A stretch of 52,082 bases of DNA, taken from Acidobacteriota bacterium. GTDB taxonomy: Bacteria > Acidobacteriota > Terriglobia > Acidiferrales > 2-02-FULL-67-57. Where the stretch lies: assembly GCA_016210855.1 (NCBI GenBank), contig JACQTJ010000022.1, positions 1 through 52,082 of the forward strand, given 5' to 3'. Positions 38,225-47,568 of the stretch are shown one piece after another (position 1 is the stretch's first letter; each line of letters begins with the position of its first letter). Both the position numbers and the translations under genes were made by a program. Under the pieces are notes generated by a model. That model ran no database searches. It was given only the letters and a program-made list of their open reading frames with translations, and was not told where the DNA came from.

Positions 38225-38887
38225 GTGAGCCCGCGCAAACACAACGGGAGCGAGCCCCGAGGCGAAGGTTCGGGGGATCGGGGTGAACTGCCCGAGGCCA
38301 CCGCCATCCGGCGCGCCCAGCAGGGCGACGCCGCGGCCTTCGAGCGCCTCTACCAGCTCCACAAGGGGCGCGTCTATTCGCTCTGCCTGCGCATGCTCGG
38401 CAACCCCGCCGAGGCCGAAGACATGACGCAGGAGGCGTTCCTGCAACTGTTCCGGAAAATTGCGACATTCCGCGGGGAATCGGCATTTTCCACTTGGTTG
38501 CACCGATTGTCGGTGAACGTGGTGCTGATGCACCTGCGGCGGAAGTCGCTGCCACAGGTGCCGCTGGAAGAGCCGGTCGAAACCGACGAGGCCGGGGAAG
38601 GGCCGCGGCGGGAACTGGGGGCGGAGGACCTGCGGCTTGCCGGCTCCATTGATCGGCTCACCCTGGAGCAGGCCATCGCCGAGCTCCCGCAGGGCTACCG
38701 GCTGGTCTTCGTGCTGCACGATGTCGAAGGCTACGAGCACAACGAGATTGCTCAAATGCTCGGCTGCTCGGTGGGCAACTCCAAGTCCCAGCTGCACAAA
38801 GCCCGGCTGCGCCTGCGGGATCTCCTCCGGCAGGGCAAAATAAAATCAGGGGGTGGGCAAACACCAGGGGGAATTTTGTCATCATAG
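38225..38887 (+). CDS. ECF RNA polymerase sigma factor (module 1)
   Basis: A 220-aa sigma-70 family member of the ECF group. GTG 38225 has AGGAAG five bases upstream. Region 2 runs from about residue 30 to 105 ([75 protein letters not shown]), and region 4 from about 140 to 205 ([52 protein letters not shown]). The N-terminal 28 residues are charged and low complexity. The adjacent zinc anti-sigma gene makes it a classic membrane-signal pair. RpoE-like by sequence style, but no specific group is assigned. Confidence 0.94.
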
Positions 38888-38903
38888 TGTATGGGGCCGG
38901 GGC

Positions 38904-38933
38904 TTGCCCTGGCCGGGAGTTTGTGGCTAGAAT
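38904..38933 (+). promoter_or_regulatory. Predicted promoter of the anti-sigma gene
   Basis: TTGCCC and TAGAAT spaced by 18 bases in the 60-base gap after the sigma gene. TAGAAT ends 14 bases before the ATG at 38948, leaving a leader of about eight bases. It would allow the anti-sigma factor to be expressed independently of, and in excess over, its sigma factor. Confidence 0.5.
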
Positions 38934-38947
38934 CGCCGCACTGAAAG

Positions 38948-39622
38948 ATGCTTGATTGTGAGCAGTTTCGGAGGGTAACGGGGGCGGTCCTGGAAGGGGA
39001 AAGCCATCCGGAGGCCTACGCCCATCTGGCCACCTGTCCCCGATGTCAACTGAGGGTCGAGGAGTTGGGGGCGGTGGCCCGCGCGGCCCGCACCCTTCCC
39101 TTGCGCGAGCCCAGTGACGGGCTCTGGGAGCGGCTGGAAGCCGCCGCTCAGCGGGAAGGCCTGTGGCCGCAGCCCTGGTGGCAGGGGTCCCGGGGGTCGA
39201 TTGTCCTTCCCGCCCGTCCCGCTTTTGCCGCCGTGCTGGCGATGACCCTCCTGCTGGCAGGCGGACTGGTCAGTTACTCGTCCCTGGAATTGCCGGTGCC
39301 GCAGAGCTTCCAGGCCAGCGCGTTCGAAGTGGCTCGGGGGGAGCTGGTGCAGGAGCCGAGCTACGGAGCGCGCTACAAGCTGCACCTTGAGCAGGTTCAG
39401 GACAGCGTGCTGGCCGAGCCGGCGCCGGAGGAATCCCACTTGCGGGAATTGGCCGACCGTCCCCTGAAGACCGTGGATCGCTGCATCGAGCAGACCGAAC
39501 TCCGGCTGGCCGAGTACCCCGAGGACGAGCTGGCCCGGGAGGAGCTGCACCGGCTCTACCGGCAGAAGGCCGTCGTCCTGCAGGCGATGAGCGATCCGGT
39601 CTGGCTGGACGTTTCCCACTGA
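38948..39622 (+). CDS. Zinc-binding anti-sigma factor, membrane-anchored (module 1)
   Basis: A 224-aa protein with an N-terminal ZAS/zf-HC2 domain: Cys4 followed by His26-X3-Cys30-X2-Cys33 (HLATCPRC). A hydrophobic segment at about residues 92-113 (FAAVLAMTLLLAGGLVSYS) is a single membrane span, placing the zinc domain in the cytoplasm and about 110 residues outside. The outer domain is helical (HLEQVQDSVLAEPAPEESHLRELADRPLKTVDRCIEQTELRLAEY) with no known fold recognised. It would sequester the ECF factor encoded just upstream. No strong Shine-Dalgarno sequence. Confidence 0.87.
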   Translation: MLDCEQFRRVTGAVLEGESHPEAYAHLATCPRCQLRVEELGAVARAARTLPLREPSDGLWERLEAAAQREGLWPQPWWQGSRGSIVLPARPAFAAVLAMTLLLAGGLVSYSSLELPVPQSFQASAFEVARGELVQEPSYGARYKLHLEQVQDSVLAEPAPEESHLRELADRPLKTVDRCIEQTELRLAEYPEDELAREELHRLYRQKAVVLQAMSDPVWLDVSH

Positions 39623-39629
39623 GCGCCCT

Positions 39630-40475
39630 ATGAAGCGCCCTTTCCGCAGCCTAGCTCTCTTGGTCACCGCGCTGGCGCTGCCGCTCGGGGCCCGCGCCGA
39701 GCGCCTGGAACGCACTTTCCCCGCCACCGCCGATACGGTGGTGGAAGTCCGCAACCTGAACGGCCAGGTGATCGTGCATGCCTGGGAGCGGCCTCAGGTC
39801 CAGGTAGTGGCGCTGCGGCGCTCCCTGGTGGTGGAGACCCATATCGAACAGGGCTCGAACCGCATCCATGTCCACACCCACCTGTTGCAGAGTTCGGCTC
39901 CGGCCAGCGAGCGCGTGGTGGACTACGAGATCTGGGCCCCGGCCAGCGCTGGCCTGCAGCTCCAGCTCGAAACCGGCGCGGTCGACGTCGAGAACTTCAC
40001 CGACGATGTGAATGTGGAAACCGTGGCAGCGGCCGTGCGGCTCCGGAACTTGAGCGGCCACACCTCGGTGAAAACCCTGAATGGCAGCATCCTGGTGGAG
40101 CGCTGCTCCGGGCGGCTGGAAGCCACCTCCATCAGCGGGTCCATGCACTTTCTCGACAGCACCTACAACCGCCTGGTGGCCAACACCACCTCCGGCGACA
40201 TCCTCTACGAGGGCGACCTGCGCCGGGGCGGCTCCTACGATTTCCTCAACCACGAGGGTGCGATCGAGCTGCGCCTCCCCCCCTCGGCCTCCTTCGAGCT
40301 CGACGCCCGCACCGTGCAGGGCGAGGTCGTCAACGAGCACCCACTCACTCCCCGCAGCCACGGCCGCGTCCCTCAGCGCAGTGGCCTGCACAGCCTGCTC
40401 GGCACCGCCCACACGGGCGAGGCCATGATCCGGGCCACTTCCTTCAGTGGTAAAATCTGGATGCGCAAGCGCTAG
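39630..40475 (+). CDS. DUF4097-family exported protein (module 1)
   Basis: A 281-aa protein with a signal peptide (MKRPFRSLALLVTALALPLGARA). The mature part shows the repeating pattern of DUF4097 beta-solenoids, in which strands end in '(T/S)-x-(N/S)-G-(D/S/H)': VEVRNLNGQVIVHAW, VRLRNLSGHTSVKTLNGSILV, LEATSISGSMHFL, LVANTTSGDILYEG. The last part (FELDARTVQGEVVNEHPL ... ATSFSGKIWMRKR) closes the fold. Families of this kind are linked to envelope stress (LiaX-like) and ECF regulons. It lies seven bases after the anti-sigma stop, so it is probably co-transcribed and exported as part of the same response. Confidence 0.85.
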   Translation: MKRPFRSLALLVTALALPLGARAERLERTFPATADTVVEVRNLNGQVIVHAWERPQVQVVALRRSLVVETHIEQGSNRIHVHTHLLQSSAPASERVVDYEIWAPASAGLQLQLETGAVDVENFTDDVNVETVAAAVRLRNLSGHTSVKTLNGSILVERCSGRLEATSISGSMHFLDSTYNRLVANTTSGDILYEGDLRRGGSYDFLNHEGAIELRLPPSASFELDARTVQGEVVNEHPLTPRSHGRVPQRSGLHSLLGTAHTGEAMIRATSFSGKIWMRKR

Positions 40476-41036: not shown

Positions 41037-41734
41037 CCCTGGTGCTGGCCGGGGCCTGCCTAGCGCTCCCGCCGACCGGGGTCGGCGGGCCGGCTCCGGA
41101 GTCCCACCAGGGCCAGCTGCGCATCCTGCTCAACAACCAGCCCATTGGCACCGAGCGCTACCAGATTGTCTCAAGCGGCACGGAAATCCGCGCCCGCGGC
41201 GAAACCGAACTCCGGGTTGGCGAACAAAAGCTTCGCCAGACCGCCGCCCTGGAGCTCTCCCCCGGCCTCGCCCCCCGCCGCTACGAATGGAAGATGCTGG
41301 AGCCGAAGGCGACCTGGGCCCGGATGGAGTTTGAGGGCTCCGTGGGGACCATCCATTTTCCCGGACCCAAGGGGAAGGACGCCGTGCAGGTGTTTGACTT
41401 CGGTGCCGCCCCGGTGGCCCTGCTCGACAACAACGTCTTCCACCACTTCCTGCTGCTTGCCCCGCTCTATGACGTCGCCGCCGGGGGCCGGCAAACCATA
41501 AAGGTCTTCATTCCCCAGGCCCTCCAGCCCGGGGATGCTACCGTGGAGCTCCTGGGGGTGGAAACCCTGACCGTGGACGCCCGCCCGCAAGCAGTCCGGC
41601 AGCTTTCGATCAGCACCGAGGACAATCAGGTGCTGCTCTGGATCACCGAGTCCGGGCGGTTCGTGCGGCTGCGCGTCCCCCGGGCCAATGTGGAGGTAGT
41701 GGCTGAGGGAGCGAGCCCCGAGCCGCCTAAATGA
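41021..41734 (+). CDS. Secreted protein of unknown function (237 aa)
   Basis: ATG 41021 overlaps the aroK end by 16 bases and starts a signal peptide (MRRILTLVLAGACLALPPTGVGG). The mature part is beta-rich: GQLRILLNNQPIGTERYQI, IRARGETELRVGEQKLRQTAALELSPGLAPRRYEWK, followed by VFHHFLLLAPLYD and a Pro-Gly region, ending RVPRANVEVVAEG. The layout recalls DUF3108-like single-domain periplasmic proteins, but I do not claim the family. The track ORF from 40607 is mostly a shadow of aroK. The last eight bases overlap the PDZ gene on the other strand. Confidence 0.8.
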   Translation: MRRILTLVLAGACLALPPTGVGGPAPESHQGQLRILLNNQPIGTERYQIVSSGTEIRARGETELRVGEQKLRQTAALELSPGLAPRRYEWKMLEPKATWARMEFEGSVGTIHFPGPKGKDAVQVFDFGAAPVALLDNNVFHHFLLLAPLYDVAAGGRQTIKVFIPQALQPGDATVELLGVETLTVDARPQAVRQLSISTEDNQVLLWITESGRFVRLRVPRANVEVVAEGASPEPPK

Positions 41735-42821
41735 ACGCGAAGGAGCGCTCGAGCTCCCGGGCCTTCCGCTCAATCTCCCGCAACTTTTTCTGGAACTCTT
41801 CCGACTCGAGCCGCTTTTCGATTTCCTCCACCGACTCCACCGCCCGCCGCTCCACCGCCCGCAGGCGGTTCTGGAACTCCTGGCTTTCCAGCTGCTTTTC
41901 GATCCACTTTTCGCTTTCGCGCAGCCGGTCTTCGAGCTGGGGCAGCACTTCCAGGTCAAAGTCGTAATCGTAGTCATAGTCGAGGTCCGGATCCGGGACG
42001 TAGAGCTCAGCGGTGCGCCGGGGCGCAAAGTGCCTGGCCTCTTCCAGCTCCACCTTCACGCTCTGCTCCTTGCGGTCGCGCACGATGGTCAGGGCCACTT
42101 CCTTGCGCTCGCTCACCAGCGCCCGGCGCAGCTCACCCACGTCGCCGATCTCCTCTCCGTCCACGCGCACGATGACGTCGCCGGCCTTCAGCCCGGCCTT
42201 CTCAGCAGCGCTGCCCGCCAGGACTTCCCGCACCAGAACACCCTTCCCCTGCTTCACACCGAAGTACTCGGCGAGCTGCGGGGTCAGCTCATCGCCGGAA
42301 ATCCCCAGCCGGGGGCCCCGGCCGAATATCTGGATCTCCGGAATCTCGATGTGCGGGACCACCACCTCGGGCACGCGGATGGTGCGGCCCAGGATGCGGG
42401 CCCGCCGCTCCTCCAGCGTCACCTCCACCGAGCGGGTCTGGCCGTTCCGGCTCACTTGTAAGCTCACCTTGCGTCCGACCGGGGTCTCGCCCACCAGCCG
42501 GCGCAACTGGGCGGCGCTCCGCACGCGCTCGTCGGCAAACCCCAGGATGACGTCGTTCGCCTGCAAGCCGCCCTTGGCCGCCGGGCTGTCTTCCTCCACC
42601 TCTTCCACTACCACTCCGGTGGCGGACGGCAGCTTGAGCTCCGCGGCCCGCTCGGTGCTGACGTCGCTGATCTTCACCCCGAGCCAGACCTGGCCACCGA
42701 AGACCACCACCCGCTCCTCCTCGGGCGCCTTGCCGCCGCTGGCGCGGACCACCGCCGTCCCCGCCACCAGCAGAGCCCCGCCGAGCAGGAGCATCCACCA
42801 ACCAATCGACTTTCTCATCAT
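41727..42821 (-). CDS. Double-PDZ exported protein with acidic repeat and helical C-terminus
   Basis: A 364-aa protein, ATG 42821 (or 42818) behind AAGGAGG. A signal or anchor segment (SIGWWMLLLGGALLVAGTAVV) precedes PDZ1 (about residues 44-130: GVKISDVSTERAAELKLPSATGVVVEEVEEDSPAAKGGLQANDVILG) and PDZ2 (about 165-250: GVKQGKGVLVREVLAGSAAEKAGLKAGDVIVRVDGEEIGDV). No protease domain is present. PDZ2 is followed by an acidic stretch PDPDLDYDYDYDFDLEVLP and two tandem, similar charged helices (ESQEFQNRLRAVERRAVE and ESEEFQKKLREIERKARE). A scaffold that binds C-termini of outer-membrane or periplasmic proteins is plausible. Last gene of module 2. Confidence 0.85.
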   Translation of the reverse strand: MMRKSIGWWMLLLGGALLVAGTAVVRASGGKAPEEERVVVFGGQVWLGVKISDVSTERAAELKLPSATGVVVEEVEEDSPAAKGGLQANDVILGFADERVRSAAQLRRLVGETPVGRKVSLQVSRNGQTRSVEVTLEERRARILGRTIRVPEVVVPHIEIPEIQIFGRGPRLGISGDELTPQLAEYFGVKQGKGVLVREVLAGSAAEKAGLKAGDVIVRVDGEEIGDVGELRRALVSERKEVALTIVRDRKEQSVKVELEEARHFAPRRTAELYVPDPDLDYDYDYDFDLEVLPQLEDRLRESEKWIEKQLESQEFQNRLRAVERRAVESVEEIEKRLESEEFQKKLREIERKARELERSFAFI

Positions 42822-42874: not shown

Positions 42875-43636
42875 TCACAGCAGGCCCTCGCTGGCCGCCA
42901 GCCGAATGCTGCCGCGGATAGTCCGCATCAGGATGGGAATGCCCCCTCGCCCCAAGCGAGTGCGCAGTCTGGTGTCGCTTCCCGGGCTCCGCGTCTCCAC
43001 CAGGAGCGGGCTCTCGATCCGTCCGGCCACTGTGCTCAATTCCAGGTCGGCCGCGGCGTCGGCCGGCAGGCGCAAGGTGAGGTCGCCGTTGACGCTTTCC
43101 AGCTGCACCCGCCCCCCGGGCTCCGGCAAGCGACGCAGGGAAACCCGCACGTCCCCGTTCAAGGTCCGGGCCACCAGGCTCCCAGCGACTCCGGTCTCCT
43201 CGATGTCCCCATTCAAGGTGTGCGCCTCCACGGCACCCTCGACATCCCGGACCACGATGTCTCCGTTGACGGTGTGCAGCGCCTCCAGAACCACCTGGCG
43301 GGGCACGCGCAGGCGGTAGTCCACCTGAATCGAGCTCTCGGCTCCCGGCAGATAGACCGTGCGCACCCGGAGCGCATTCGGCCGCGGCTCAACGGCAATG
43401 CTGACATCGGACTGGCCCAGCTCCTGGACACCGGTCTTGAGCACCGTGAGCTCCACCTCAGCGCGGTCCCAGCCTTCGACGGAGATCGAGCCCTGGATGT
43501 TGATCACCTCCACCTGACCCCCGCTGGCCAGCGGGTAATTGGCCGTCCACATCTGCTGGGGCGCACCGGCCGCAGGCACGGCCGCTACCCCCAAAGCCAG
43601 CAGCCCGCCGAACAGAGACCCGAGGGCACGCTTCAT
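42875..43636 (-). CDS. DUF4097-family exported protein (module 2, short)
   Basis: ATG 43636 (MKRALGSLFGGLLALGVAAVPAAGA) is preferred: AAGGAG lies seven bases upstream, while the ATG at 43642 would overlap the site. The 253-aa product has a signal peptide and DUF4097 rungs of the form TVNGDIVV, TLNGDIEE, TLNGDVRV, SVNGDLTL, with IQGSISVEGWDRAEVELTVLKTG at the start and a C-terminal strand set ending RTIRGSIRLAASEGLL. It is closely similar in style to the module 1 protein at 39630. It lies 28 bases after the long DUF4097 gene and 53 bases before the PDZ gene. Confidence 0.85.
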   Translation of the reverse strand: MKRALGSLFGGLLALGVAAVPAAGAPQQMWTANYPLASGGQVEVINIQGSISVEGWDRAEVELTVLKTGVQELGQSDVSIAVEPRPNALRVRTVYLPGAESSIQVDYRLRVPRQVVLEALHTVNGDIVVRDVEGAVEAHTLNGDIEETGVAGSLVARTLNGDVRVSLRRLPEPGGRVQLESVNGDLTLRLPADAAADLELSTVAGRIESPLLVETRSPGSDTRLRTRLGRGGIPILMRTIRGSIRLAASEGLL

Positions 43637-43664
43637 CGCCATTCTCCTTGAGCGGAGATTCCTG

Positions 43665-45011
43665 CTAGTCGGGTTCCTTGCGCTTCTTGCGCTCTTTCTC
43701 GTGCTCCTTTTCGCGCTCTTCCCGGCGCTGCTGCTGCTGCTGCCAGCGCTTCCAGTGCATTTGCTGACGCTGCTGCAGGCGCTCCAGGGTGGCCGTGTCG
43801 ATCTTGCGGATTTCGATGTCGCCGTCCACGGTGCGAATCCGCAAGGTGGCCCCACCGCCGTTCAGGGCTCCGAAGGCGCGCAGGGCGCCGGAGCGATACC
43901 CGGTCTCGTCGCCTTCGACCTGCAAGGGAAAGTCGGTCTGGACCCTGTGGCCGGCGGACATCTCGATGGTGGCTTCGATGGTGAGCGGCAAATCGGCGGG
44001 GAGGTAGACTTCGACGTCCCCGAAGGCGGTCTCAAGCTCCGAGGCCGCGAAGTTGGCGGAGGTGGCGGCGATCTGCGCCAGGATCTTCCCCCCGGCGGTG
44101 GCGGCCCGCACCGCGCTCTGGATGCCATACAGGTCGATGCTGCCTCCGGCGGTCTCGGCTCGGATCGGCCCCCGGGCTGCATCCAAATGGATGCTGCCCC
44201 CGGCGGTCTCAGCCCGCACGCTGCCGCCGCTCTCCCCAATCCTGATCTGCCCGCCGGCAGTCTGGGCGATGACATCAGCCCCGGCGCTGCGCAGCACAAT
44301 GTCGCCTCCGGCGGTCTCGGCCCGCACCCTGCCGTCAATCCGCCCGGCCAGAATTTGCCCGCCGCTCGTCTCCAGGATGGCGTCGCCTTTGACGTCGCCC
44401 ACTTCCACACAGCCTCCGGCAGTCCGAGCTTCCAGACGTTGGCCAATCTGGCCCATTTTGATGTTGCCGCCCGCGGTCTCGGCCCGCACCGGACCGTTTA
44501 CATCGCCGGTGGTGATGTCGCCCCCGGCGGTGGCCACCCGGAGTTCCCCCTCCAGCTGCTCCACCGCCATATTGCCGCCCTGGGTTTCCAGGTCGAGATT
44601 GAACCGCAGCGGCACCTCGATGTTGTAGGCCACGCTTACGCGGCCCGAGTGCCCGCGGTCGGAAACAAACCGGCCAGCCACGTAGGCGCCGCCGCCCGTG
44701 ACCCGGCGCGCGGTCAGCTCGTAGCGGCTGAGCAGCCGCCGGGCGTCTTCCTCGCTGGACGTGAACACGTTCAGTTGCACCCGGCACTCCACCCGGTCCG
44801 CCGCCCCCGGCCTCACTCTCACCGTGCCCAGGTCCGCCCGCACCACCAGGCGCGCTCCTTCCTGCACCGGGACTCCGCAGCTGGCCTCCTCCACCCAGGC
44901 CTTCGCCTGGCGCTGGAGCACGCCGCGCTTGACGTACGCCTCCCTCTGGGCAGCCACGGGAAGGACAACTGCTACCCCCAGGGCGCCCAGCAGCAACCAG
45001 CGCAGTCGCAT
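43665..45011 (-). CDS. DUF4097-family exported protein with 18-residue repeats
   Basis: A 448-aa protein with a signal peptide (MRLRWLLLGALGVAVVLPVAAQ). Residues about 22-141 form a beta-rich region containing Cys45 and Cys76. Residues 142-321 are ten tandem 18-residue units, each like ETAGGSIHLDAARGPIRA; the TAGG (or TQGG/TSGG) step recurs without a gap, which implies a regular beta-solenoid with one turn per unit. A fall of identity marks the last unit. A DUF4097-type closing part follows (LRIRTVDGDIEIRKID), and a very polar Gln/Arg/Lys/Glu tail of about 45 residues (QQRREEREKEHEKERKKRK) ends it. Longest of the three DUF4097 proteins here. Confidence 0.85.
   Translation of the reverse strand: MRLRWLLLGALGVAVVLPVAAQREAYVKRGVLQRQAKAWVEEASCGVPVQEGARLVVRADLGTVRVRPGAADRVECRVQLNVFTSSEEDARRLLSRYELTARRVTGGGAYVAGRFVSDRGHSGRVSVAYNIEVPLRFNLDLETQGGNMAVEQLEGELRVATAGGDITTGDVNGPVRAETAGGNIKMGQIGQRLEARTAGGCVEVGDVKGDAILETSGGQILAGRIDGRVRAETAGGDIVLRSAGADVIAQTAGGQIRIGESGGSVRAETAGGSIHLDAARGPIRAETAGGSIDLYGIQSAVRAATAGGKILAQIAATSANFAASELETAFGDVEVYLPADLPLTIEATIEMSAGHRVQTDFPLQVEGDETGYRSGALRAFGALNGGGATLRIRTVDGDIEIRKIDTATLERLQQRQQMHWKRWQQQQQRREEREKEHEKERKKRKEPD
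44049..44588 (-). repeat. Ten in-frame 54-bp repeats inside the long DUF4097 gene
   Basis: The coding repeat array has a 54-base period. On the plus strand the recurring blocks read GCGGTCTCGGCCCGC or close variants, each encoding the RAETAGG step. Units have diverged between the conserved steps, so this is an old amplification kept in frame. It spans residues 142-321 of the protein. Confidence 0.8.
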
Positions 45012-45029: not shown

Positions 45030-45962
45030 CTAGTTTTGCGCCCGCTCCCGGGCGGCCCGGGCGCACTTCATGCGCACATAGGGGCTGCGGTCGGTGCTGG
45101 CCAGCTCCTCCAGCACGGGCAGCATCTCGTCATCGGCATGCTCGATCAGGACATTCACGACCGCCGCCCGCACCCCCGGGTTGTCATCGGTGCGCAGGGC
45201 CCCCAGCAAGGCCTCGCGCACGTCCGGATCCCAGGCGATTCCCTGCACCGCCTCCACCGCTTCCAGGCGCACTCCGGCGTTGGCGTCGTACCGCAGCGCA
45301 TAAAGCAGGGCTTCGCGCACCGTAGGGTTGTCTCCCTGGTCCCGCAATACCTCCAGGGTGTCCCGCCGGATGCCGGGGTTGTTGTACCGATTTGCGGCGT
45401 AGAGCATCACTTCCCGGATTCGGGGGTCGTCGAGCGACCCTTCCAACGTCACCTGCCGTTCCGCATCCATGGTGATGCGCACCGCGCCGGTCTGCGGGTC
45501 CGGAGCCACCTGGCTGATGCCGCTGATGCGGAGGTTTGCCAGGTCAGCCCCCACCCAGGGAGCGGACTCGGCGCGGCCTGCCGGTGTCGCTGGGGAACCG
45601 GCCCGCGGACGCAGCGTCCAGCCGAGCGAGAACCCGAGCAGCAGGATGGTCAGCGCCGTCGTCACCCGCAGGGCAGAAACACCCGGGGGCACGACGAACC
45701 AGCTCCGCACCAGGGCCCGCCAGCTCGCGGCTTCGCGGTCGAGGGCCTCCTCAAGGGCCTGGCGGCAGCGGACCAGGAGCTCGGGGGAGGGCTCAGGCAG
45801 GGCCCGCTGGTCGAGCAGGGCTCGCAGGCGGCGCAGCTCGGCCGCGGCCCGGGCGCACGTCGTACAGGCTCCCAGGTGAGCCTCCACGGCGGCCCGCTCC
45901 TCCGCCCCCAACTCATCGTAGAGGTAGAAGGTCAGGTTCTCTTGAACCACTTGGCAGTTCAT
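45030..45962 (-). CDS. Anti-sigma factor with zf-HC2, membrane span and HEAT-like repeats
   Basis: ATG 45962 behind GAGGGGAG gives 310 aa; the track start at 45986 lies inside the sigma gene. Cys3, His29, Cys33 and Cys36 (HLGACTTC) form the zinc anti-sigma domain. A hydrophobic helix at about residues 103-122 (ALRVTTALTILLLGFSLGW) is the membrane span. After a linker, residues about 168-310 hold four to five HEAT-like repeats: DDPRIREVMLYAANRYNNPGIR, NPTVREALLYALRYDANAGVR, DPDVREALLGALRTDDNPGVR and a last one ending VRMKCARAARERAQN. The repeats would lie outside the inner membrane and are an unusual sensor for an anti-sigma factor. Confidence 0.88.
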   Translation of the reverse strand: MNCQVVQENLTFYLYDELGAEERAAVEAHLGACTTCARAAAELRRLRALLDQRALPEPSPELLVRCRQALEEALDREAASWRALVRSWFVVPPGVSALRVTTALTILLLGFSLGWTLRPRAGSPATPAGRAESAPWVGADLANLRISGISQVAPDPQTGAVRITMDAERQVTLEGSLDDPRIREVMLYAANRYNNPGIRRDTLEVLRDQGDNPTVREALLYALRYDANAGVRLEAVEAVQGIAWDPDVREALLGALRTDDNPGVRAAVVNVLIEHADDEMLPVLEELASTDRSPYVRMKCARAARERAQN

Positions 45963-45978
45963 GGCGCTCCCCTCGTTC

Positions 45979-46620
45979 TTAGACAATCTCTTTCAATTCC
46001 GCCCTCAGTTTCTGGGTGGCTCGGAACAAGCAGTTCTTCACGGTCTGCTCGCTCGTGCCACAGTACTCGCCGATGGCGCGCAGCTTCATCCCCTGGTAGT
46101 GCTTGAGCTCGAAGACCAATCGCTCCCGGGGGCTGAGCCGGGCCAGCGCCGCCCGGATCCGCCGCCCCACTTCCTTGCCCTGCAGGGCGCGTTCCGGGTC
46201 GAGTTCTGGCCGCTCCTCGGCCACCGTCTGGAAGAATTCGACCGGCTCCGGATCGCTTCCCGCAGCCGGCGCCGGGGCCTGCACCTCCCGGCGAGTGCCG
46301 GCCCGCCGCAGATGGTCGAGGCAGACATTCATCACCACCCGGTAGACCCAAGTGGAGAAGCGGGACTCAAACCGGAAACGGCCGAGGGCTCGGTAAATCT
46401 TCAAAAACGACTCCTGGTAGAGGTCCTTGGCCTCTTCTTCCGACCGCACCACCTGCAGAGCCAGCCGGAGCACACTCCCCTCATACTTGCGCACGAGCTG
46501 CTCGAAGGCGCCCCGGTCGCCACGCTGAGCCTGGCGGATCAGGGCGCGCTCCTCGAGGGCGTCGAGCTGCGGGTTCGCTCCGGGCACTCGGTGGATTAGC
46601 TCCAAGCAGGCGCCATCCAT
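45979..46620 (-). CDS. ECF RNA polymerase sigma factor (module 2)
   Basis: A 213-aa ECF sigma factor. Region 2: LIRQAQRGDRGAFEQLVRKYEGSVLRLALQVV, EEEAKDLYQESFLKIYRALGRFRFESRFSTWVYRVVMNVCLDHLRR; region 4: AALARLSPRERLVFELKHYQGMKLRAIGEYCGTSEQTVKNCLFRATQKLRAELKEI. ATG 46620 is the first available start; AGGGGAGAG lies a little far upstream. It is the first gene of the minus-strand module 2 (sigma, anti-sigma, two DUF4097 genes, PDZ gene), with only 16 bases to the anti-sigma ATG. Its sequence differs clearly from the module 1 sigma factor, so the two are paralogues, not a recent duplication. Confidence 0.94.
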   Translation of the reverse strand: MDGACLELIHRVPGANPQLDALEERALIRQAQRGDRGAFEQLVRKYEGSVLRLALQVVRSEEEAKDLYQESFLKIYRALGRFRFESRFSTWVYRVVMNVCLDHLRRAGTRREVQAPAPAAGSDPEPVEFFQTVAEERPELDPERALQGKEVGRRIRAALARLSPRERLVFELKHYQGMKLRAIGEYCGTSEQTVKNCLFRATQKLRAELKEIV

Positions 46621-46704: not shown

Positions 46705-47568
46705 TCAGGACTTCTTCTTGAGCACCTCGCGGCACAGGCGCTGGAGTTCAGCGCTCTCTTGCTGCTGGCGGGCATCGCCCCCGGCGGCCGCCACCTGAGC
46801 GGCCCGCTCGGCCAGGGTCAGGGCGCGCTCGTGATAGAGGCGGAACATCCGCGGGTCTTTCAAGGCCTCAGCCCGGTAGATGCTGCTCATGGAGAGCAGT
46901 TCCCGGGCGGCGCCCAGATAAAAGTCGGCCGGGTCAAGCTCCTGGAGGCGCGCCCGGAGCTGGCCGGCGTCGTCGCCCGCGCCACCCAGCCGAGCCAGCA
47001 GCCCGGCCATCCCCTCGACGATTTTCTCTTTTTCGGCCCGGGTGCGGTCAGGGTCCTCGACCCAACTTCCCTGGCGCACCTTAGTGAGTGTGGGGTTTCC
47101 CGTGCCCGGGCTCGCCGCCACGGGGAAGTCCACGGGCAGCGGCTGGAGCGGCTGTTGCCGCAGGCGGTCCAAGGCCTCCACCATCTCGATCGAAAGCCCG
47201 CGGGCCCGGCCGAAGTAGTCCATGGCGATGGAGCGCATCTGGGAGGCGTAGGCGGCGGCGCCGGCCTCTTGCGAGCCGACCAAGTAGCTTTCCGCGACCT
47301 CCTTGAGGCCACGCGCCATCCCTCCCAGGACCACCACATGCAGTACCTGCGCCCGCCGGCCGAGCGCGCTGCCCTTTCCTTCGCGCGCCACCCGGGCCAG
47401 GGTGTCGAGCGCTGGCGCGTAGTTGGCGTTGGCCATCTGCTCTTTGGCCAGCGCATAAAGAGCCTCGGGGCTGCGGGGCACGATGGGCTCACCGCAGCCG
47501 GCCGCCAGCAGGGCGGCTGCGACCAACGCACCCGCTCGTCTTGTGCGCACGTAGCTCACGATTCGCAT
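46705..47568 (-). CDS. Predicted lipoprotein, tetratricopeptide-like, unknown function
   Basis: A 287-aa protein with a lipoprotein signal peptide: AGALVAAALLAAGCGEP, with the lipidated Cys at residue 25. The mature part is helical, starting EALYALAKEQMANANYAPALDTLARVARE, a TPR-like helix pair, followed by longer helices (VVVLGGMARGLKEVAESYLVGSQEAGAAAYASQMRSIAMDYFGRARG) and a C-terminal helical region ending in KKKS. I cannot name a family. It could be part of an outer-membrane lipoprotein pathway served by the LolCD-like system, which is only a guess from localisation. Confidence 0.75.
   Translation of the reverse strand: MRIVSYVRTRRAGALVAAALLAAGCGEPIVPRSPEALYALAKEQMANANYAPALDTLARVAREGKGSALGRRAQVLHVVVLGGMARGLKEVAESYLVGSQEAGAAAYASQMRSIAMDYFGRARGLSIEMVEALDRLRQQPLQPLPVDFPVAASPGTGNPTLTKVRQGSWVEDPDRTRAEKEKIVEGMAGLLARLGGAGDDAGQLRARLQELDPADFYLGAARELLSMSSIYRAEALKDPRMFRLYHERALTLAERAAQVAAAGGDARQQQESAELQRLCREVLKKKS

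Follow-up and report, generated by a model that had tools for sequence, protein, structure and literature searches.

The window, by which we mean the whole 52,082-nucleotide stretch of Acidobacteriota DNA analyzed here, carries on its reverse strand a block of genes in the order ECF sigma factor, zf-HC2/HEAT anti-sigma factor, exact-period Toastrack (DUF4097) protein, second Toastrack protein and double-PDZ protein. The start of the block has the form by which an ECF operon is recognized, in that a short sigma factor with Sigma70 regions 2 and 4 adjoins a zf-HC2 protein in which inspection finds a transmembrane segment. The features are as follows, with the parts of the exact-period protein listed under it.

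45979..46620, reverse strand: ECF sigma factor (profile matches to Sigma70_r2 and r4_2), first gene of the conserved block
45030..45986, reverse strand: anti-sigma factor with zf-HC2 (Pfam), one apparent transmembrane segment (LRVTTALTILLLGFSLGWTL, by inspection) and HEAT repeats beyond it
43665..45011, reverse strand: coding sequence of the exact-period Toastrack (DUF4097) protein, 448 aa (PF13349, 30.4 bits against a cut-off of 22.9; AlphaFold2 pLDDT 92.5)
44946..45011, reverse strand: probable Sec signal peptide, aa 1-22 (MRLRWLLLGALGVAVVLPVAAQ), from sequence inspection; pLDDT about 50 over aa 1-20
44595..44945, reverse strand: N-terminal cap, aa 23-139, beta strands and one short helix in the AlphaFold2 model
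44055..44594, reverse strand: ten 18-residue solenoid units, aa 140-319 (lag analysis, alignment and AlphaFold2 model)
43797..44054, reverse strand: C-terminal beta cap, aa 320-405, with a conserved NGGG motif (AlphaFold2 model and sequence comparison)
43677..43796, reverse strand: charged C-terminal helix, aa 406-445 (AlphaFold2 model)
42875..43642, reverse strand: second, less regular Toastrack (DUF4097) protein (PF13349, 30.8 bits), a conserved neighbor
41727..42821, reverse strand: double-PDZ protein with a charged C-terminal tail and without a Pfam protease domain, a conserved neighbor

The solenoid, its fold and its period

The ten-unit repeat of 18 residues that drew attention to this gene in the original prediction is real. 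It runs ungapped through aa 140-319 (44055-44594 in the window, six bases from the 44049-44588 first given), with a lag-18 identity of 0.37, while the highest value among 2000 shuffles, scanned over lags 3 to 59, was 0.20. A second, weaker signal at lag 9 is consistent with two strands per rung. The unit consensus is xAxTAGGxIxVxxVxGxV, with a core of T-x-G-G-x-I. Amino acid identity among the ten units ranges from 17 to 56% (mean 38%) and mean DNA identity is 49%; Tandem Repeats Finder reported no DNA tandem array at the repeat region, so the repeat exists at the protein level and is old.

Structure prediction had been proposed as a check on the original reading, and AlphaFold2, run with 29 sequences, returned a confident repeating beta-solenoid (pLDDT 92.5, pTM 0.86) that is capped at both ends, has two short strands in each of its ten rungs, and is followed by a helix of 40 residues. 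The highly charged tail described originally is also real and is predicted as a single helix (aa 406-445). In the model, aa 26-133, ahead of the rungs, form several strands and a single helix, a stretch that we compared with the seven-stranded, intertwined N-terminal region of Toastrack proteins, topology aside. Membership in DUF4097 holds up as well, the PF13349 score of 30.4 bits being above the curated cut-off of 22.9. Sequence search alone found no relatives with a solved structure. Foldseek gave the Toastrack protein 4QRK as its top solved match (E 6.2e-07), but with low TM-scores (0.15/0.27), and ranked other putative adhesins after it; given those scores, the model supports fold similarity to 4QRK overall, without detail. 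The protein represents the known Toastrack (DUF4097) fold in a regular form and, to judge by its N-terminus, is apparently exported.

Ordinary DUF4097 proteins are indeed less regular, as originally claimed. Among the 30 Acidobacteriota DUF4097 loci scoring best against Pfam, the longest run of exact 18-residue spacings is 0-5, against 8-10 in full-length order-level homologues of the window protein; the motif test is a simple one and these run lengths are lower bounds. Several of the 19 ordinary loci measured for lag have a best lag of 19 or 21. Some homologues found in the phylum without the operon around them do reach runs of 6 or 7, so exactness is graded. The Toastrack of a Krumholzibacteriota locus (L036, 642-1784, forward strand) is more regular than the window protein, with a best-window lag-18 identity of 0.55.

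Rung number and the residue after the turn

The original prediction held that the solenoid might vary in length between strains and serve as a ruler, a tether or an adhesin-like rod, and the exact period, the exposed charged helix and the apparent secretion signal are what such a reading would have in its favor. Comparison of relatives goes the other way. Every homologue in the window's family has ten units of 18 residues, as do most relatives in the order, where length shifts are confined to unit 2 (-1 to +15 aa); beyond the window's family, two members of the order lack one residue of that unit and some others have an insertion in it. In full-length homologues across the phylum, exact runs are mostly nine or ten, with some of five or seven. 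The units are also positionally orthologous. In each of four named family relatives, all ten units find their best match in the same-numbered unit of the window protein, and a fifth close homologue (L035) does so for 9 of 10, with same-position identities among close homologues of 0.60-0.77 against 0.35-0.38 for other positions. These same-numbered matches give no sign of recent gain or loss of units, and neither they nor the missing DNA array lend support to recent unit duplication.

Nor does the solenoid make much of a rod. Beta-solenoids rise by about 4.8 Å per rung, so that ten rungs come to about 5 nm, a block rather than a long rod. A Pfam search of the protein found no surface-anchor or autotransporter domain, and its neighbors are a sigma factor, an anti-sigma factor, a PDZ protein and another Toastrack. 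We therefore consider a variable-length ruler, tether or adhesin-like rod highly improbable; the ten-rung Toastrack looks like a fixed signalling scaffold instead. Toastrack rung number can evidently stay nearly fixed over large evolutionary distances, and this near-constancy suggests that surface and length matter for docking.

The residue that follows the GG turn (unit position 8) would stack along an edge of the solenoid, and a ladder of this kind could bind a metal or a polymer. Some lineages have suggestive ladders. In many relatives within the order (L030 and L027, for example), position 8 reads D-N-H-H-H-N-Q-G-S-T, which puts three histidines in a stack on the adjacent rungs of units 3-5. 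In other lineages the ladder is nearly all Asp or all Ser, and the L036 Toastrack has Asp after GG in all ten units. The stack of histidines in the relatives may possibly be a metal or ligand site, one that is absent from the window protein, where the residues of units 1-10 are N-D-N-C-Q-D-Q-S-S-K and a uniform ladder is thus ruled out. Asp after G is, moreover, common in Toastracks generally. Ligand or metal binding as the role of the solenoid accordingly strikes us as very unlikely.

A conserved block and a possible envelope-stress role

A zf-HC2/HEAT anti-sigma gene is the neighbor in all 29 order-level loci examined, and a downstream partner is present in 28 of them (short flanks); the sigma gene is seen in 24 of 29, with flanks of at most 1.5 kb that may leave some sigma genes out of view. 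In the rest of the Acidobacteriota, the block is present around most full-length homologues. Parts of it also occur in two contigs from outside the phylum or unassigned, with the anti-sigma gene in L036 (Krumholzibacteriota) and both sigma and anti-sigma genes in L037, from an unassigned marine bacterium. A HEAT anti-sigma neighbor is absent from all 30 ordinary DUF4097 loci of the phylum. The full-length homologues are one gene family, so these neighborhood counts partly reflect orthology and the loci are not independent evidence. A simple scan for [GT]GAAC-type motifs recognized no ECF-like promoter upstream of the window's sigma gene. In open-licence papers we found no description of a block of sigma factor, HEAT anti-sigma factor, Toastrack and PDZ protein, and no paper linking DUF4097 with HEAT anti-sigma factors. 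This is a conserved and, it appears, undescribed signalling block in a little-studied phylum, and an odd-looking repeat thereby becomes a testable pathway.

The C-terminus varies among relatives. In the window protein and the relatives nearest to it, the charged helix is the last element, while many relatives in the order have a longer helical linker followed by a TonB_C domain. This domain follows the linker in 11 of the 28 tree proteins, five by Pfam and the rest by motif, and the tree needs about three changes of TonB_C state, one of which depends on L032, where the frame runs off the contig end and the seeming lack of TonB_C is no evidence. Toastrack-TonB_C fusions were seen by Pfam in L012, L014, L018, L026 and L030, and by motif only in L022, L024, L025, L027, L028, L029, L031 and L033.

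On balance we favor, with some reserve, an envelope-stress pathway of the ECF type in which the protein acts in the periplasm as a scaffold or sensor. The anti-sigma factor would hold the sigma factor with its cytoplasmic zinc-finger part and turn its HEAT repeats toward the periplasm. There the flat sheets and the helix of the Toastrack block would dock partners in the envelope. The probable ones are the HEAT domain, the PDZ protein and the second Toastrack, joined in relatives by whatever partner TonB_C has, and docking might relay or buffer an envelope-stress signal. Of this picture, the analysis shows the repeat, the predicted fold, family membership, gene order and the conserved number of rungs; export, docking to HEAT, the stress signal and control of the gene by the sigma factor are inferred. 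Published work makes a role of this kind plausible: one paper proposes that Toastrack serves as a scaffold in the signalling of membrane stress, also together with a sigma factor from the same operon (PMC11237479), and the surface protein LiaX, which has a PF13349 domain, is thought to inhibit LiaFSR through its beta-rich C-terminal domain (PMC10269926).

The conserved gene order would also fit a gene that the sigma factor merely targets and that has no part in sensing. The main rival reading is that the Toastracks are sigma output genes that reinforce the envelope, by binding peptidoglycan, the outer membrane or lipid, and sense nothing. The gene does lie downstream in the operon, together with the second Toastrack and the PDZ protein, it has an apparent signal peptide, and the fact that many relatives in the order carry a fused TonB_C suggests a partner in the outer membrane or the cell wall. 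The anti-sigma gene, however, is the most constant neighbor, which suits a regulatory partner, although this is not decisive. We give this purely effector role a real but minority chance. A more specific form of the scaffold or sensor role, which we hold to be rather doubtful, would have the exact-period solenoid pair directly with the HEAT anti-sigma factor in the periplasm, the 18-residue beta rungs and the HEAT helices being two regular repeat surfaces that dock and register the state of the envelope; the pair would be shared by the Acidobacteriota and at least one other phylum, and extended toward the outer membrane by the fused TonB_C in some lineages.

Likeness to known systems and adjacent genes

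The nearest likeness is to Toastrack proteins themselves (PF13349; 4QRK, 4OPW), through the profile match and the beta-solenoid with an N-terminal cap. In the ordinary members measured the period drifts and the best lag may be 18, 19 or 21, whereas the window protein keeps an exact, ungapped 18-residue period over ten rungs. It is also apparently exported without a fused transmembrane domain, although the 2024 Toastrack paper (PMC11237479) predicts an intracellular domain, and it has a long charged helix, with helix and TonB_C in relatives. LiaX of enterococci is likewise an extracytoplasmic Toastrack tied to envelope-stress signalling, but it belongs with the three-component LiaFSR of Gram-positives and has an N-terminal helical sensor, whereas the window protein carries its helix at the C-terminus and has an ECF sigma factor and a HEAT anti-sigma factor as neighbors. 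The LiaG family (NF049997) shares the Toastrack domain and a weak profile similarity, at 26.7 bits, far short of the equivalog cut-off of 285; the window block also lacks a LiaI-LiaF-TM or PspC partner. As a set of sigma factor, membrane anti-sigma factor and PDZ protein, the block resembles RpoE-RseA with DegS and RseP, but its anti-sigma factor is built from zf-HC2 and HEAT repeats and its PDZ protein lacks a protease domain that Pfam would recognize.

A second, convergent ECF module lies at 38225-40475 on the forward strand and is kept beside the first in several relatives.

38225-38887, forward strand: second-module sigma factor
38948-39622, forward strand: second-module probable anti-sigma factor (weak NCBIfam match)
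39630-40475, forward strand: further DUF4097 protein of the second module, followed by a shikimate kinase gene and a DUF3108-like gene

In the window's family, the gene directly upstream of the first module's sigma gene encodes a probable lipoprotein (46705-47568, reverse strand), with a lipobox by inspection and weak similarity to BamD/YfiO.
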